This document shows, in pieces, positions 9,801-20,956 of a stretch of DNA of 64,000 nt (its first letter is position 1; each line of letters starts with the position of its first letter). The notes below the pieces were generated by a model. That model saw nothing but the letters and a program-made list of their open reading frames with translations, did not search any database and was not told the DNA's origin. The position numbers and the translations under genes are program-made. The DNA comes from Hericium rajendrae (taxonomy: Eukaryota > Basidiomycota > Agaricomycetes > Russulales > Hericiaceae). Location of the stretch: positions 434,001-498,000 of the forward strand of contig CM065887.1 of assembly GCA_033439255.1 (NCBI GenBank), given 5' to 3'.

Positions 9801-10740
9801 ACAGATGGCCTCTCTTCCAATTAAATTGGACCTCTTCCGTTTTTTTCGAGGATCTATGGTCCATGGCAAAATATATGTACCAGAAGCTTTCCGGGACGAA
9901 CGACTGAACCTGGTTGTACCGCGACACCACGAAGCCCAAGGTCGGAAATTGACATGGCCCTGCCGATCAACTATTACGATATCGAGGAGAATCAAGGTAA
10001 AGAGACACCCACCATAAGATACAACAGACTCCTTGACTTGCTCCACTCGGGTCTGCAGGGCTAGCGTCTGCATGCGAGTAAATGCTGCACCAATGCGCAA
10101 GTCAAGCACAGTCCGAGCTTCAACGGCAGAAGCTTGCGCCATGTCCAATTGAACAGGGTGCTGCGCTGCGTTGTGTATCTGCCTGGCCGAACCGTTCACA
10201 CAACCCATAACAAAAGATGTTTCTCGAGACGTACTGTGCAATGATGGCACTAAACCTCGCTCGCTTCACTTGTATCGTCGGGTTTGCTTTGCGACAAATA
10301 CGAGCTATCTCCGCGCCAATATTCTCTCCCTCTCTATCACAGTCAGTCCAAATCATAAGTTGCTGGGCTTTCTTTGCTTCTGCGGTGAGGTTTCTCTCGA
10401 TGCCTTTCTTGTCAGGAACCACATAGGATATCACTTGAGCTTCGAAGAGAGCAAAAGGGTCGCAAGAATTCCATTTGCGATGAGTATCCGCGAAGTCGTA
10501 GTTCAACAGGTGACCTGCGACACAGGTCACAGTGAAAGCAGCTCTTGCTTGAGGGTAGTTGAAGTCATAATTCTTGACATAGTTTACAGATGTGTTGCGC
10601 TAGAGCAACGGGAGACTAGATCAGCCGAACGCTTGCAGACAGTGTTCAACGCAGCTCACAGAAGTGAATTGCCCGCCTGACAGTATCTGAGTTATCGACT
10701 TTGAAATGGATGGCTTCTCAGCGACGCATAGCACTCTCAT
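6854..10740 (-). CDS. TOP3: DNA topoisomerase III (TOP3A-type) with GRF and CCHC zinc fingers
   Basis: Type IA topoisomerase that decatenates single-stranded DNA and works with a RecQ helicase and Rmi1 to dissolve recombination intermediates in the nucleus. Start MRVLCVAEKPSISKSI is the canonical N terminus (ATG 10738-10740). The Toprim motif WTDCDREGENIG, LDMAQASAVEARTVLDLRIG, GPCQFPTLGFVVSRY, the active-site tyrosine in GFLSYPRTETD, and RRGKNNDQAHPPIHPT appear in order. A long glycine-rich linker (roughly 8080-8350) precedes two GRF-type zinc domains (about 7660-7860 and 7400-7570), then two CCHC knuckles, CFKCGQEGHWAS and CFKCGEEGHYSSSC, and an RG-rich tail ending GAADEF before TAG 6854-6856. 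Many short introns. Intact as far as I can splice it. Confidence 0.96.
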
Positions 10741-13630: not shown

Positions 13631-13783
13631 TACCCTTTGCTGCACATCGACGAAAATTTGTACACCCCGAGCCATTTCGCGAATTTACACTTGGGAGCAA
13701 AAATGTAATGTTGATGTGACTGATGTATTTGAAGTGAGTGCAAGCTTGGCACGAGACAACTACCAATGGTCCGAGTTATTAAA

Positions 13784-13997
13784 TCAGGGTTAAAAAGAAT
13801 ATGTTTAACCTAGGCTAATGGTCCTAGCGCCCGGATATGCCTGAGCTCGGCCCGCTCTCTGTGAGCATCTGCCGTCCGTCCACACACGTACGCGCTCTTC
13901 GATCTTTTGCCTCCGTGCGTCCGTGCGCGAGCACTTTTTTGTATCACCTTCTGTCCCCAACCGTCGTACACCTACGACTTTGAGTCTGTTCAAGCAC
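13784..13997 (+). repeat. Ngaro left repeat A1
   Basis: 214-bp direct repeat, identical to A2 at 18391-18604 (offset 4607). Begins TCAGGGTTAAAAAG and ends GTCTGTTCAAGCAC. Probably holds the element promoter and 5' leader for the gag frame that starts at 14057. Confidence 0.95.
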
Positions 13998-14056
13998 TTA
14001 TCGAAATCTGCGATTTCCGTCGAGTTTGAAAACTCTCCATCAAAATATCAAGTTCC

Positions 14057-15334
14057 ATGTCCCGCGAATCGTCTCCGATATCAGCGCCGCCGCCTTCATC
14101 TCCACATGGACAACACGACGGAACAGAAAACCAACATACGGGGGAGGAAGCCTCCGATTCGACTCTTCAGACACCGGTTACTCAGCAACAGGCTGACCAA
14201 TCATCGCCTTTCAGCAGCGCCGTCGTCAATGAGTGCTTGCAGTCAGCTCAGCGCTTCAGGGGCGGGGAATACTCGCGAGAAGAAGCGTTGTTCCACATCT
14301 TCGATGCGCTCGGGAGCCTTAATCAGCCCAGCTCGCTCGTATTCCAGGCCGCGCGCCCGTATGTCGACATGTTGGACAAGATCGTCAACGAACAACGATC
14401 CGCCGAAGACAGAGGCCGCGTTCTCACCGGCGCTCCTGCCGAAAGTGAGCAGATCAGAGATATCGAGCCTCAAGCAGCTGTCGCCGACGTCGCAATTCCC
14501 GTTGCAAAGAAGCGACGTCGCCCCGAGGCCGACAACGACAGCGACAACGAAGAAGATCGCGCAAGCAGACGGCCCCTCGATCTCTCCGCTCTGCCTTGGA
14601 TGCAGAATGTCCGAGCAGTTCCACTGCCCCAGGACCTCACCGATACTCGACGCCTGCTCCTCTTGTTCGCCGAAGAACCCAAGAGGTGGAAGACTTTCTT
14701 CACCAACGAGCCCAACTGCCCACAGTTTCCTGACACCGAGTGGTCAAATGTGCTTCTCGGGAAACCCGTCAACCTCGATCTGGTCCTCGCCTCTATGTAC
14801 AACGTTTCGCTCGAGAGTAAACTCAAGGAACGACTCGGACGTGTCAGTCTCTCGCTCGATGACGTCGCACCGGCGAAGATCGTCAAGTCCCAAGGGGAGT
14901 GGATGTCTGCATGGACGCGTACGTCCGAAGCCACCGCCTTCGTTTTCCGCCATCGACGCGATGAGCTCGCGCAGTACAGCGCATACATTTCATCACTATT
15001 CACCTCCATCCTCGAAGCCAACCACAGCCGAGTCCTACAATACGACAGGGCCGTTCGACTTCGGGTCTCCAGCCGTCGGGACTTGTATCTCACCGACGTT
15101 CACCAATTCAGTGACCTCCACCTCCAATGGTTGTCACTTCTCGGTGCAGGACCCGGGTCTTCAACCCCGCGCTCTAGCGGAGCTCGCTCAGCTTCAAGAT
15201 CTGGGAAAAGGGATCCCTGCCGTCGGTGGAATGACGGTAAGTGCCCGTTCACTGCAACTACCTGCAACTGGGCCCACGTCTGCCTCAAATGCTCGGGCTC
15301 GCATGCCGCCAGCGCGTGTACTCAGCGCGGTTGA
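14057..15334 (+). CDS. Ngaro ORF1, Gag-like protein with C-terminal zinc fingers
   Basis: 425 residues. Serine/glutamine-rich N terminus, a middle helical region (RREALFHIFDAL-like and LLLFAEEPKRWKTFF), a basic stretch KKRRRPEADND near residue 150 that could be a nuclear localisation signal, and a C-terminal pair of zinc motifs: CRRWNDGKCPFTATTCNWAH (CCCH type) followed by CLKCSGSHAASAC (knuckle-like). This layout is usual for fungal YR-retroelement Gag proteins, which package the RNA. Stop TGA at 15332-15334 lies 32 nt inside the next frame. Confidence 0.85.
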   Translation: MSRESSPISAPPPSSPHGQHDGTENQHTGEEASDSTLQTPVTQQQADQSSPFSSAVVNECLQSAQRFRGGEYSREEALFHIFDALGSLNQPSSLVFQAARPYVDMLDKIVNEQRSAEDRGRVLTGAPAESEQIRDIEPQAAVADVAIPVAKKRRRPEADNDSDNEEDRASRRPLDLSALPWMQNVRAVPLPQDLTDTRRLLLLFAEEPKRWKTFFTNEPNCPQFPDTEWSNVLLGKPVNLDLVLASMYNVSLESKLKERLGRVSLSLDDVAPAKIVKSQGEWMSAWTRTSEATAFVFRHRRDELAQYSAYISSLFTSILEANHSRVLQYDRAVRLRVSSRRDLYLTDVHQFSDLHLQWLSLLGAGPGSSTPRSSGARSASRSGKRDPCRRWNDGKCPFTATTCNWAHVCLKCSGSHAASACTQRG

Positions 15335-17171
15335 CGAGGATTACACGGCAACCCCGCGGCATCGTCTAGGGCTCGGATGGGCTCTCGACGATCCATACAC
15401 CTACACACCGGCCGCGGACTGGTCTCTTACGGCACCACCCCTTCCTTCACCACCTGATAATGAACGAACGAATTTCGTACTTCATCGTACTATTTCCGAA
15501 CACCCCGAACTTTTCAAAAATCCATGTATCATTAATTGCGATCAATATGAGAATTTACTTGCATACCATCCTAATGTGCCTTTTGTCGAATCTGTTTGCA
15601 GTGGTCTGCGCGAGGGCTTCTGGCCTTCGGCTATCACTGACAGGCCAGGTTATCCAATCACTTGGGACAATTCTCATCGTCAATTATCCTCCGACAAGCA
15701 CCGTGCTTTCGTCGAAGAACAATGTCAAAAGGAAATCGATCTTGGCCGTTTCTCGGAGGCATGGATAGCCGATGAACTGTATCCCGGCATGTATAGCATG
15801 CCAATCGGCGTCGTTCCCAAGCCCAATTCTGATAAACTGCGCCTCATTACGGACCATAGCGCCGGGAAGTTCTCTTTGAACTCAATGATTCCCAAACCCG
15901 ATTTCGACGAGAAAGTTCAACTCGATAACGTTCAAGACCTCGGTCGCGTACTTCTGCGTGTTCACCATGACTATCCAGGTCGCAAACTCGTCCTTTTCAA
16001 ATCCGATGTTGCTGAAGCCTATCGTCAAATGCCAATGCACCCCTGGTGGCAAGCCCGTCAGATCGTCTCCATCGGAAATCGTCGAATGGTCGATCGTGCC
16101 AATGTGTTTGGAGGTTGTCGCTCGGGAAACATATGGTGCGCTTTCATGAGCCTCGTGCTCTGGATAGCCGTATACATTTGGCATCTTGCCGACCTCCTCG
16201 CTTACTCCGATGATACTTTCTCTTGGGAATTTGCCGACCATACATCTTGGTATGCTCCCTATGCATGTTTCTTGCCGACCAAGCAAGCTCGCCTGCTCCG
16301 CCTTTGGGATATTTTACGCATACCTCACAACCGTCCCAAACAAATCAATGGCTCTCCGCTACCCATCATTGGTTTCGAGGTCGATGCTAATTTATTGCAA
16401 ATTACGCTATCGGCTGAACGACGTGCTGCGCTCGTTGCTGCTATCCACGATTTCATCTCCGTATCAGCTGGCCGACACCGTCGGCCTCTTCGCCACTTCC
16501 AAGCCCTTGCCGGTTGGGTGCAATGGTCACTCAACGTGTTCCCCCTTTTGCGCCCAGGTCTTTCACGTTTGTATGCCAAAACACGAGGCAAGACCAACCC
16601 TAATGCCCCTGTGGAGGTCTCCGTCGCCCTGCGCCACGAGCTGACCTGGTTGGCCAATCATATCGAGCAAGCTTCTGGCGTCTTCATGCTGGAATCGCTC
16701 AACTGGCGTCCCGCTGATGCTGATCTCGTCCTGTTCACTGATGCCTCTCTCGAAGGCCTCGCCTTTTGGTCACCAGCACACTCCCTCGGTTTCCGCGCAC
16801 ATCCCCCTGACATTGCTGCCACGATTTTTTTCTGGGAAACTCTTGCGGTTGTGTCTGCAATCGACTGGGCATCACATCTCGAACCTGGACGACCACGCCG
16901 CCTCCTCATACACTGTGACAATACCAACACAGTTGATTTATTCAATACACTCCATGCTCAACCGCAGTATAACAGCCTTCTATTATATGCTGTTGATCGA
17001 CTTTTAGCTAGCAAGATTGACCTTCGCGTCCAACATCTTGCCGGTTCCTCCAATAGTGTTGCCGATGCACTTTCTCGCTTCCAAACCGATCGCGCACTTG
17101 CCTTGCACCCTGATCTCACCATCTTTACCTTTATTCCCCCTCGGGATGCGCTGGGGGCACCCAAGTTATGA
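15303..17171 (+). CDS. Ngaro ORF2, reverse transcriptase and RNase H
   Basis: From ATG 15303 the frame gives 622 residues. RT landmarks: IGVVPKPNSDKLRLITD, SDVAEAYRQMPMHP (catalytic Asp), GGCRSGNIWCAF, and the active site AYSDDTF with YSDD at 16203-16214. RNase H landmarks: LFTDASLEG, FWETLAVV, HCDNTNTV and SNSVADALSRF (the DEDD set). The frame is open far upstream, back to 13923, across the whole of ORF1 in the +1 register, so expression could be by +1 frameshift from Gag or by restart at 15303. The stop TGA 17169-17171 overlaps the ATG of ORF3. Confidence 0.93.
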   Translation: MPPARVLSAVDEDYTATPRHRLGLGWALDDPYTYTPAADWSLTAPPLPSPPDNERTNFVLHRTISEHPELFKNPCIINCDQYENLLAYHPNVPFVESVCSGLREGFWPSAITDRPGYPITWDNSHRQLSSDKHRAFVEEQCQKEIDLGRFSEAWIADELYPGMYSMPIGVVPKPNSDKLRLITDHSAGKFSLNSMIPKPDFDEKVQLDNVQDLGRVLLRVHHDYPGRKLVLFKSDVAEAYRQMPMHPWWQARQIVSIGNRRMVDRANVFGGCRSGNIWCAFMSLVLWIAVYIWHLADLLAYSDDTFSWEFADHTSWYAPYACFLPTKQARLLRLWDILRIPHNRPKQINGSPLPIIGFEVDANLLQITLSAERRAALVAAIHDFISVSAGRHRRPLRHFQALAGWVQWSLNVFPLLRPGLSRLYAKTRGKTNPNAPVEVSVALRHELTWLANHIEQASGVFMLESLNWRPADADLVLFTDASLEGLAFWSPAHSLGFRAHPPDIAATIFFWETLAVVSAIDWASHLEPGRPRRLLIHCDNTNTVDLFNTLHAQPQYNSLLLYAVDRLLASKIDLRVQHLAGSSNSVADALSRFQTDRALALHPDLTIFTFIPPRDALGAPKL

Positions 17172-18163
17172 ATTTTCCCTCGCGCTCGGCCCGGCAACCC
17201 GTTCGGGAACCCTGGTCACATGAGCGTCTTGTGCGTGAACGAGCCATCGCGCTCGGCTGCGCACTACGGAATTCATCTCTTCTCTCCTATTCGTCCGCCC
17301 TTCAATCCTACCTCAATTTCTGTCGCACACATAACATGCCAATCGAGCCCACCGAAGACACGCTCTCTTTCTACATTGTCTACACTTCCCACCACATTCG
17401 CCCGACCTCCGTCTCGAACTATCTCTCTGGTATCTGTAACCAACTTGAACCTTTCTTTCCGAATGTCCGTGCTGTTCGTCGCTCACAACTAGTTTCCCGC
17501 ACTATGCGCGGCTGCCTCAAGATCCACGCCTCCACTCCCACACGCAAAAATCCACTGTCTCGCTCTCAGCTCTCCGACATTCTTTTGCTTTACAGCACGA
17601 GCTCCTCGCTCGATGACCTTCTTTTTGTTGCCCTCATTGCCACAGGTTTCCACGGTCTCCTTCGGCTCGGCGAACTTGTCTGGCCTGATCGCATTGCTCT
17701 CCGCGACTGGCAACGTGTTACCACTCGCAGCTCCTTGCAATGGATGCCTAACGGCTACCGTTTTACATTGCCTACTTCCAAAACCGACCACTCCTTCCGT
17801 GGACACGACATCATGATCGCTGGTGTCCCTTCCTCATGTGACCCCGTACTCCCTTTTCGACGTTATCTCAACGAACGTGATCGCCTTTTCCCTTTCCACC
17901 CAAACCTCTGGGCTCGAACTTCTGGCGATGTTCCCACTCGCTCCTGGTTCATGCGTCGATTACGGGCTCATTTCCCGACCGACATTAGCGGCCATTCCCT
18001 ACGTGCTGGAGGCGCCACCGCTCTTGCCGAAGACGGTATCCCTCTTGACTACATTCAGTTTCTTGGCCGCTGGACTTCCGATACTTTCCAACTTTATATT
18101 CGAAAAAATCCCGTCATCCTATGTTCCCTTCTTTTCCAATCTCCGAATCCTGCTACATCATGA
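17168..18163 (+). CDS. Ngaro ORF3, tyrosine recombinase
   Basis: 331 residues. Integrates the double-stranded DNA copy in place of the integrase of LTR elements. An N-terminal SAM-like core-binding region (SYSSALQSYLNFCRTHN, SVSNYLSGICNQLEPFF) precedes the catalytic domain with the first Arg in GFHGLLRLGELVW, the HxxR box in SGHSLRAGGATALAEDG, and the nucleophile Tyr in TFQLYIRKNP. ATG overlaps the ORF2 stop as ATGA, which suits termination-reinitiation. All catalytic residues are present, so the protein is potentially active. Confidence 0.93.
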   Translation: MNFPSRSARQPVREPWSHERLVRERAIALGCALRNSSLLSYSSALQSYLNFCRTHNMPIEPTEDTLSFYIVYTSHHIRPTSVSNYLSGICNQLEPFFPNVRAVRRSQLVSRTMRGCLKIHASTPTRKNPLSRSQLSDILLLYSTSSSLDDLLFVALIATGFHGLLRLGELVWPDRIALRDWQRVTTRSSLQWMPNGYRFTLPTSKTDHSFRGHDIMIAGVPSSCDPVLPFRRYLNERDRLFPFHPNLWARTSGDVPTRSWFMRRLRAHFPTDISGHSLRAGGATALAEDGIPLDYIQFLGRWTSDTFQLYIRKNPVILCSLLFQSPNPATS

Positions 18164-18243
18164 TGCCGCTGTCATCCTACCTCCCTTCCACCACCTCTCT
18201 ATGCCACTCTTCCACTTTCCTTTTTCTTCCACTTATAGCTATA

Positions 18244-18391
18244 GGGATCGTTTCCGTGTGCCATGATCAATATACTCGGTTTCTTTTCGGGCCGCTCCGC
18301 ATCCGTGCGGAGGCGGTCGCGACATCCCTATAACTTCTTTGCCCGCTTTCTCGACTGAGCTCCGTCCGCGTCGACGTGCAAGACAATTAGT
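18244..18391 (+). repeat. Ngaro repeat B1
   Basis: 148-bp direct repeat starting GGGATCGTTTCC and ending CAAGACAATTAGT. It abuts A2 with one shared T. Contains a short GC hairpin, CCGCTCCGCATCCGTGCGGAGGCGG region. Matches B2 at an offset of 451 bp. Confidence 0.93.
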
Positions 18392-18604
18392 CAGGGTTAA
18401 AAAGAATATGTTTAACCTAGGCTAATGGTCCTAGCGCCCGGATATGCCTGAGCTCGGCCCGCTCTCTGTGAGCATCTGCCGTCCGTCCACACACGTACGC
18501 GCTCTTCGATCTTTTGCCTCCGTGCGTCCGTGCGCGAGCACTTTTTTGTATCACCTTCTGTCCCCAACCGTCGTACACCTACGACTTTGAGTCTGTTCAA
18601 GCAC
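18391..18604 (+). repeat. Ngaro repeat A2
   Basis: Second 214-bp copy of A1, identical over the full length. The B1/A2 junction reproduces the junction formed when the two element ends are joined in a circle. Confidence 0.95.
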
Positions 18605-18694
18605 CCACCCTTTCCCTCCCTTTGATCATGCTTTCCTTTCTCTTGTAAATACTCATCTATTTTCTACTTATGTCCTCATGTATTCTCTCCTCCG

Positions 18695-18842
18695 GGGATC
18701 GTTTCCGTGTGCCATGATCAATATACTCGGTTTCTTTTCGGGCCGCTCCGCATCCGTGCGGAGGCGGTCGCGACATCCCTATAACTTCTTTGCCCGCTTT
18801 CTCGACTGAGCTCCGTCCGCGTCGACGTGCAAGACAATTAGT
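18695..18842 (+). repeat. Ngaro right repeat B2
   Basis: 148-bp copy of B1 forming the right end of the element; the next bases AATAAGATAAG are host DNA. The 90 bp between A2 and B2 (18605-18694) is unique pyrimidine-rich sequence. Confidence 0.93.
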
Positions 18843-18931: not shown

Positions 18932-19843
18932 TCACAGTCTCCGGCTGTTTTGCACCCGAATAAACAACCAGTCCACAGCCGCACGAACGCCGGTCCTGAG
19001 GTACATACATAGATGTAGCGTCGGTTAAGTCGGATAACCGCATGAGCTTACCCTTCCAGCGCAGACACGCCCATCACATCCAGACTCGCAATCCGCTCTC
19101 TGCGGTGCTCCATCGCCATCTCCTCACCATATCTCCGGCGCGCGCTCTCCATCTTGCGCTGGTACCACTCTTCATAGTCATGGCGAATCTCCTCCACCGA
19201 GAGGCTCTCCGGGCTGTCCTGCTTATTCGCAACTAGCAACAGCGGGACACCAAGAATTTGCGGCGCAGACAAGACGCTGTCTATCGGCCTGGCGCTCAGT
19301 CAAGGCCATTCGCACATCGTTAGAGTCAGAGAACGCACCGAATACCTCCCACCCCTCAGCGAGCCACTCGCGGTCCTCCGCATCGACGACGTAGACCACG
19401 GCATGGCAGTCGTCATAATACCGCGGCCATATTGACCGAATCCCCGTCTGCCCTCCGAGGTCCCAGAATTGCAGGATGGTGGACGGAAGACTGACCTTGC
19501 CCGCTACAGCAGATGAGAATAGAGCAGAGGCGCGAACTATGCGCAGTGCTCACTGTTCTGGCCGACCGTCGGGGCTATCTTGTCTGGGGATAAACCGGGG
19601 ACATCGTTGTATAATGTTTTGATCTTCTCTAGCAACGTCTGAAACAACGAACATGTTAGAACGTAGCGTTCCTAATTCCGTGTGGACATGACATAGACGC
19701 ACGGTCTTGCCAGCTCCGTCCAGCCCTATGATAATGACAGAAAACTCTTCCTTTCTTATTTTCTCATCAGCCCTGCCCAATGACCTATTTGGAAAGGCTT
19801 ACCTGGTCAGGTATTCATGGAGTCCCTTGAGGAGATGGTACAT
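18932..19843 (-). CDS. ARFRP1: ARF-like small GTPase, ARFRP1 / yeast Arl3 type
   Basis: Golgi-associated GTPase that starts the Arl1/GRIP recruitment cascade at the trans-Golgi. Start MYHLLKGLHEYLTR aligns with human MYTLLSGLYKYM; there is no Gly at position 2, and a Met-Tyr start fits the N-acetylated rather than myristoylated ARFRP1/Arl3 group. P-loop GLDGAGKT, switch region APTVGQNS, WDLGGQTGIRSIW, DDCHAVVYVVDA, LLVANKQD and SALEGTGVRAAVDWLF are present. The stretch between NKQD and SAL is longer than in human ARFRP1 (about 40 residues, charged: EEWYQRKMESARRRYGEEM). Five or so short introns; stop TGA 18932-18934. The Ngaro element ends 89 bp beyond the stop. Confidence 0.92.
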
Positions 19844-19971: not shown

Positions 19972-20956
19972 ATGGGCTTCTACACGAACTACTACGCCTT
20001 CGGGCTGCCCTCGTTTCTCGTAATCGTAATCGCACTATACCTTCTCTTCACCGGTATGTTTGACTTCGGCCCCGTCGCCAGCTACGGGTCGCTGAACACG
20101 CATCTCGTCCAGGTTCGGGAGAGGCATTCAACGTCGGCCGCTTTTTGGAGGAGACCAGTCCGTATGTGTGGGCATCTACAGGAATCGGCCTTTGCATAGG
20201 CTTCAGTGTGCTGGGTGCAGGATGGTACGTGTTTGAAGCCAGTTGCGCCCGGTGCCGCGACTGACTTGCAGTGCAGGGGTATCTTCGTGACGGGCTCATC
20301 AATATTGGGCGGCGGTGTGAGAGCTCCCCGCATACGAACCAAGAACTTGATCAGGTGTGCTGCATTTGCCCTGTGCCCGTAAATCTCATTTTAATTCGTG
20401 AATTCCAGTGTCATCTTCTGCGAGGTTGTTGCCATCTATGGAGTCGTACGTCCCATTCCGATTCTCTGCCTCCAGTCCTGGCATGCTCACATCATAATAA
20501 TTGCAGATCATGGGAATTGTGTATTCCGCAAAACTGGAATCCATTGCTGAGGATCTCATGTACACCAGGGAGAATTACTTTACCGGTGCGCGCCCTCTGC
20601 CTCTGCTCGATATCCACCGTGCTCATATACTCCACAGGTTACGCGCTGTTCTGGGGCGGCATCACAGTGGGCCTTTGCAACCTTCTGTGCGGTGTCTCCG
20701 TCGGCATCACAGGCTCGACCGCCGCGCTTGCAGACGCCGCGGATCCCTCGCTTTTCGTGAAGATCCTCATCGTGGAGGTATTCGGCAGTATCCTTGGTCT
20801 CTTCGGGCTCATTGGTGAGTCGGTAGACTCTTCGTCGCCTACATTGTTACTTAAAGCAACCTACCAGTGGGACTTCTCATGATCGGTAGGGCATCTGAGT
20901 TCCAAGCGGCACCGGCCGTCGAGGGCGCGCAGCTGGCAGGCGCTCTGTTCTCGTAA
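19972..20956 (+). CDS. VMA16: V-type proton ATPase proteolipid subunit c''
   Basis: Membrane rotor subunit of the vacuolar proton pump. Spliced exons give [18 protein letters not shown] (helix 1), [79 protein letters not shown] with the essential Glu, [36 protein letters not shown] and [18 protein letters not shown], ending LAGALFS at TAA 20954-20956. This matches yeast Vma16 throughout. Six introns, all short. An in-frame ATG lies 114 nt upstream (19858) but would add an arginine-rich segment not seen in relatives, so 19972 is preferred. Confidence 0.94.

Follow-up and report, generated by a model that had tools for sequence, protein, structure and literature searches.

A window of 64,000 nucleotides from the basidiomycete Hericium rajendrae (contig CM065887.1, positions 434,001 to 498,000) carries at 13784-18841 a Ngaro-type retrotransposon of 5,058 bp, here called E0, whose relatives elsewhere in the genome are named by contig (C12a, C6 and so on). 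We think it probable that E0 is a structurally complete, recent, single-copy element in which leaky scanning leads ribosomes into a Pol frame that overlaps gag, and stop-start reinitiation leads them on into the tyrosine recombinase (YR). The wider proposition, that an entire group among the fungal Ngaro elements is dual-coding over all of gag, with a Pol protein of about 1000 residues made by leaky scanning to the AUG next after a conserved weak gag AUG and YR by stop-start reinitiation, strikes us as evenly balanced. E0 itself adds a new member to an established kind; the expression layout that it has in common with its relatives is a candidate new variant.

The gag open reading frame (ORF) of E0 occupies 14057-15334 on the forward strand, as do all features of the element, and encodes 425 residues from an AUG in weak context. 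The initial annotation had placed a boundary between gag and the reverse transcriptase (RT) at about 15300; the Pol frame, at +1 relative to gag, is in fact open through all of gag. The proposed full Pol ORF runs from the second AUG at 14106 to 17171 (1021 residues), so that 1229 nucleotides, 14106-15334, are read in both frames without a stop in that of Pol. The same +1 frame is stop-free across gag in all 10 elements with a largely intact gag, E0 included; the gags of C6 and C8, with one gag-frame stop each, are counted among the 10, and an insert in the gag of C11, within which the 2 +1-frame stops of that element lie, was excluded. At NTA and NTG codons the +1 frame is closed at 0 of 129 positions in gag (10 genes), compared with 97 of 433 in RT (9 genes, 22%) and 23 of 182 in YR (8 genes, 13%). 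Fisher tests of gag against RT give P values of 4e-8 for NTG and 5e-4 for NTA, and those of gag against YR give 0.007 and 0.02, all of them overstated because the elements are related. Shuffling gag in 9 lineages with protein and codons preserved, C6 being left out as closest to E0, led to an expectation of 22.6 stops, and the lowest of 2000 shuffles had 12. Two decayed gags outside the ten do carry +1 stops, at 4 of 16 positions in C14 and 3 of 17 in C18 (3 and 9 gag-frame stops, respectively), and openness therefore goes with intactness. With the E0-C6 pair set apart, synonymous divergence (dS) of gag lies at 1.04-1.89 in the 11 pairs listed; that lineages this near to synonymous saturation have retained the layout makes for a precise and cheaply testable prediction.

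A stop-free +1 frame might also arise as a by-product of codon and dinucleotide bias in gag. RT and YR likewise have fewer +1 stops than their codon shuffles (97 against 116 and 23 against 45.9), which means that the deficit is partly general; since the shuffle overestimates for these two genes, the true expectation for gag may be about half. Even when halved to 11.3, however, the expectation makes zero improbable (about 1e-5 by hand arithmetic, with independence assumed), the RT and YR controls as well as the decayed gags keep the very stops that intact gags lack, and bias leaves the layout of AUG codons unexplained. We consider an origin in bias very improbable.

The start codons are arranged as leaky scanning would require. 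In 10 of 10 elements the first AUG past that of gag, in any frame, lies in the Pol frame, at an offset from the gag AUG of +10 (five elements), +13 (three) or +49 (E0 and C6); the layout of C11 was read from its separate 5' piece. A pyrimidine at -3 combined with T at +4 makes for a weak AUG context, and this combination surrounds the gag AUG in all 10, while 7 of them have a purine at -3 or G at +4 around the Pol AUG. A stop closes the Pol frame 21-84 nucleotides upstream of the second AUG in 5 of 9 elements. At the far end of Pol, its stop codon and the YR start codon share bases in all 11 elements, as ATGA in seven (17168-17171 in E0) and as ATGTTGA or ATGTTAG in four; in C11 the frame begun at this overlap is soon broken.

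Pol could alternatively be expressed as in an ordinary Ngaro element, by a programmed +1 frameshift or a similar device close to where gag ends, in which case it would be incidental that the +1 frame is open further upstream. Retroelements usually rely on frameshifting to express pol after gag, and gag and Pol do overlap near the end of gag. Such a mechanism nevertheless leaves without a reason both the stop-free frame over the earlier part of gag and the second AUG in the Pol frame, each found in 10 of 10 elements, and inspection of 9 gag ends by eye, with no formal signal search made, revealed no common signal; we regard it as unlikely. A spliced RNA from which all or part of gag is removed would be another source of Pol, and by eye a GTAAGT is present in the zinc-finger region of E0 at about 15238. 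This motif was not seen by eye at that place in 8 other gag ends, though, and splicing does not require an open +1 frame across gag, and we consider this route very improbable.

Some observations weigh against leaky scanning and reinitiation, in addition to the partly general deficit of stops. The context of the second AUG is no better than that of the first in 3 of 10 elements, and in E0 and C6 it stands at +49 instead of +10 or +13. In 4 elements of the 9, E0 included, the Pol frame stays open for 132-327 nucleotides before the second AUG, C4 has an earlier ATG in its open upstream Pol frame, and three earlier ATGs lie at 13801-13839 within A1 of E0. Extra synonymous constraint in gag is slight (mean kappa 0.21, compared with 0.16 in RT and 0.08 in YR), and the peptide encoded by the overlap, rich in S, T, R and P, is poorly conserved, with pairwise identities of 0.41-0.47 as against 0.56-0.64 for gag in 5 pairs. 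The Pol protein of E0 reaches no Pfam cut-off (RVT_3 at E about 0.1), and of five RT structure models one is good (mean predicted local distance difference test score, pLDDT, of 68) and the other four fall below 47. Finally, all comparisons rest on one genome, in which the relatives are not independent of each other.

A functional overlap peptide was considered and set aside as not needed, in view of its poor conservation and the weak extra synonymous constraint; selection thus seems to keep the frame open rather than to preserve its sequence.

Leaky scanning followed by reinitiation would allow one RNA to serve all proteins, and we infer translation along these lines from the frames and their start codons. 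Gag would start at its weak-context AUG; ribosomes skipping it would initiate at the AUG that follows, in the +1 frame, and continue across gag into RT and RNase H to yield a protein of about 1021 residues; and the recombinase would follow by reinitiation at the overlapping stop-start ATGA. If this is true, the ratios of three proteins would be set by initiation alone on one RNA, with neither frameshift nor splicing. The replication cycle would be that of the Ngaro-type group, in which RT and RNase H copy the RNA, a circle with rebuilt ends is formed by way of the internal B1-A2 junction, and this circle is then inserted by the recombinase beside a short A/T stretch without target duplication.

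Analysis of the repeats confirmed the full-length A1-B1-A2-B2 anatomy that had been proposed at the outset. A1 (13784-13997) and A2 (18391-18604) are identical over 214 bp, and 18244-18391 matches 18695-18842 over 148 bp, as scored, again with 0 differences. As judged from the empty site of a relative, the terminal matching T (18391/18842) opens A2 at the one position and belongs to the flank at the other, and because of this B measures 147 bp (B1 at 18244-18390, B2 at 18695-18841) and the element ends at 18841. Over the 361 bp of the two pairs together there are 0 differences, and chance cannot account for identity over 214 and 148 bp. The ORFs lie between A1 and B1, a spacer at 18605-18694 separates A2 from B2, and the junction of B1 and A2 (ATTAG followed by TC) presumably serves as template for the junction of the circle. 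Split direct repeats are present also in 10 relatives; in C5 and C15 the complete layout was not found. No inverted repeat of 20 nucleotides or longer was found near the ends of E0, and its long repeats are direct, which differs from DIRS1-type elements with their inverted termini and an internal region complementary to them.

All three frames are open in E0 (gag at 14057-15334, RT up to 17171, YR at 17168-18163), and the catalytic residues listed for them in the initial annotation are in place. Gag ends in what we take to be CCCH and CX2CX3HX4C zinc-finger motifs, the Cys and His residues of which are invariant in 8 aligned gags. The conserved RT and RNase H region of Pol spans 15348-17168, with YSDD at 16203-16214 and RNase H at about 16722-17081; the RNase H acids D465, E497, D524 and D573, in a numbering that begins at 15348, do not vary among 8 aligned Pol proteins. 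RVT_1 of Pfam is recognized in 4 of these 8, at best with 7.4e-5, and the Pol of E0 is not among them at E 0.1. A Foldseek search with the RT model returned RT-RNase H structures of retroviruses, Ty3 and caulimoviruses (best 1.8e-9), in line with a predicted RT-RNase H fold. No methyltransferase family was found in Pfam at E 0.1, and Pol ends 30 residues past the last RNase H motif, DALSR; lack of this domain sets Ngaro elements apart from DIRS and PAT.

The recombinase, of 331 residues, is encoded downstream of RT on the same strand and keeps R166, K205, the His-x-x-Arg pair H276/R279 and Y310 (first codon bases at 17663, 17780, 17993, 18002 and 18095). Phage_integrase is matched by 8 of 9 aligned YR proteins, at best with 7.8e-6, and weak matches to Cre were obtained too; YR of E0 itself scores 3.5e-4 and 20.8 bits, below the curated cut-off of 27.1 bits. 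In the relative C6 (L010) the catalytic Arg is replaced by Cys, and gag, RT and YR are all interrupted, yet its repeats differ at just 1 of 440 positions. In C9 (L017 2171-2301; C9:148047-148177) the YR gene contains a 66-bp tandem duplication, 98.5% identical, in an element with near-identical repeats.

To place E0 among its relatives, the genome (46.8 Mb on 19 contigs) was searched, all counts being lower bounds. A1 found a 100% match only in the two repeats of E0, followed by C6 at 74% and short matches in C14 at 79-81%; E0 is therefore the lone copy of its lineage, which neither refutes the youth claimed for it earlier nor shows the siblings of a burst. With YR as query, at least 15 loci at 49% identity or more were obtained, E0 included and pieces of one locus merged, and further fragments without YR are present. 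The nearest relative, C6, is 83% identical to E0 over 2.7 kb of DNA, and C5 and C12b (92%) are the sole Ngaro-type loci above 90% in the comparison. Between E0 and C6, dS reaches 1.04 in RT and 1.12 in YR at a ratio of nonsynonymous to synonymous divergence (dN/dS) of 0.06 in both, and 0.67 in gag at a dN/dS of 0.10; these values point to long purifying selection between lineages that now stand at about one copy each. An RT alignment run against viral_contigs and genome_contigs for relatives elsewhere gave 75 and 86 pattern matches, respectively, 0 of which were confirmed.

The repeat pairs provide a measure of age. At a fungal substitution rate of 1.05e-9 per site per year (PMC4905642), 0 of 361 differences gives E0 an age of less than about 4 million years at 95%, as calculated by hand. 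The label 'young' in the initial annotation is thus supported as an upper bound only. Differences between the paired repeats (A pair, then B pair) are also few in C12a (0/288, 0/152), C2a (0/335, 1/156), C4 (1/338, 0/161), C2b (1/380, 0/134), C9 (1/367, 1/137), C6 (1/286, 0/154) and C12b (2/381 plus one gap, 1/124), and more numerous in C8 (6/331, 2/49), C14 (15/329, 5/149) and C11 (6/298, 6/154). C5 has open frames and an A1-like stretch, with no repeat pair found, and C15 is decayed. All three frames and both repeat pairs are kept in 5 of the 15 YR loci (E0, C12a, C2a, C4 and C2b), so that recent, intact single copies are not unusual in this genome. The argument from the rarity of intact copies, said to be far outnumbered by decayed ones, is accordingly weak here, decayed loci being somewhat more frequent.

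E0 could be older than it appears if gene conversion had homogenized A1 with A2 and B1 with B2, and its solitary state, with no close sibling found, would agree with this. Set against such a history are the identity of both pairs together with intact ORFs, and the differences that the more damaged relatives C14, C8 and C11 retain between their repeats; we judge it quite unlikely. The genome also appears to house numerous lineages that are old, under selection and for the most part single-copy, and that have inserted recently; turnover or removal, rather than bursts, would fit this pattern.

More distant YR retroelements are also present (L026 1453-3757 and L059 3-3651, at C3:3049k and C8:1061k), with YR 26-34% identical. 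In both, about 1 kb or more of the RT/RNase H frame is shared with a second long frame, which in L026 holds YR; they are possibly of the DIRS1 type. A C13/C15 pair of such distant loci is 99.5% identical over 1.7 kb.

How Ngaro elements integrate is shown directly by a tandem-repeat empty site and an A/T target rule. C14 is inserted in one unit of a two-unit tandem repeat of roughly 160 bp (L005 1350-1492, L006 2058-2200), and the other unit constitutes a natural empty site that runs uninterrupted through the insertion point; the comparison reveals neither a duplicated target nor any gain or loss of bases. The ends so defined are TCG at the start of the element and ATTAG at its finish. At the flanks of E0 no target duplication is visible, the empty-site comparison coming from C14 only. 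Immediately left of A1, E0 has the A/T-only pentamer TTAAA (13779-13783), and across 11 elements these five positions are A or T at 51 of 55, as scored (expected 0.47, P 5e-13), or at 53 of 55 once the register of C11 is shifted by 7 bp, as judged by eye; on the right the figure is 26 of 50 in 10 elements.

Just inside A1, at 13788-13810, lies a subterminal inverted repeat, GGTTAAA...TTTAACC, with arms at 13788-13794 and 13804-13810, that we take as a possible recombinase-binding site. Measured on the A2 copies of 11 elements, 73 of 77 cells are paired (94.8%), and one pair covaries (A-T in 4, G-C in 4, T-A in 3). Three of 5 measures lie above shuffles (0 of 500); pairs changed on both sides and the number of pair types do not (450 and 427 of 500). 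The register was picked from a slide table, in which one column off gives 57% paired, and the gain over slides is partly a matter of selection.

E0 seems to have inserted between convergent gene ends, since the 3' end of UTP25 lies on its left (matched by Pfam in three pieces, two of which reach or exceed the cut-off; stop at about 13630, by eye) and a minus-strand small-GTPase-like gene lies on its right, with an apparent end near 19050 as read from the sequence, no search having been made. Each 400-bp flank occurs once in the genome. Other host genes in the window encode an ATP synthase subunit C-like protein (20271-20879, plus strand) and a Toprim-domain protein (10120-10527, minus strand). 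Elsewhere, just left of an intact Ngaro copy, a diverged tandem array of about 144-bp units was noted (L065 1-617; C2:4172046-4172662).

The published record was compared through those portions of the cited papers that were covered. Within them we found no answer as to how tyrosine-recombinase retrotransposons control the ratio of Gag, Pol and recombinase. Among the matches listed, in titles and the beginnings of abstracts, leaky scanning was not found in connection with Ngaro or tyrosine-recombinase retrotransposons, the original Ngaro descriptions being outside this coverage. Overlapping frames in general are mentioned for Ngaro-like elements; the covered text on Ngaro and DIRS elements contains no description of a second-AUG layout or of a Pol frame that extends across the whole of gag, making the full gag-pol overlap a candidate novelty for the group. 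Ngaro and Viper elements are said to be usually without ORF overlaps, and DIRS1 elements may overlap pol with YR (PMC3266345), while in two Xenopus Ngaro families all frames overlap to an unstated extent (PMC9210276).

DIRS1-like elements resemble the E0 group in having a tyrosine recombinase and no target duplication, and long ORF overlaps occur in half of 28 elements; they differ in their inverted terminal repeats, their methyltransferase and an overlap between pol and YR rather than gag and pol (PMC3266345). Ngaro-like elements of fungi (PMC3783388) and Xenopus (PMC9210276) have the order gag, RT-RNase H and YR found in E0, and like it no methyltransferase; YR may be in a frame other than that of RT (PMC3783388). 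A fourth ORF, for an SGNH hydrolase, that is described between YR and B1 is not in E0. The A1-B1-A2-B2 structure is likewise that of E0 (PMC8547959, PMC6681497), and the repeats of DIRS-53_XT of Xenopus, 236 and 152 bp long, are both 100% identical; potentially active domains are reported from all four fungal Ngaro clades (PMC3783388). Stop-start reinitiation, which in E0 is read from the sequence alone, has experimental support in the non-long-terminal-repeat (non-LTR) element SART1 and in two groups of RNA viruses, the hypoviruses and victoriviruses, where, as in E0, the stop of one ORF overlaps the start of the next on a single RNA (PMC5972666).

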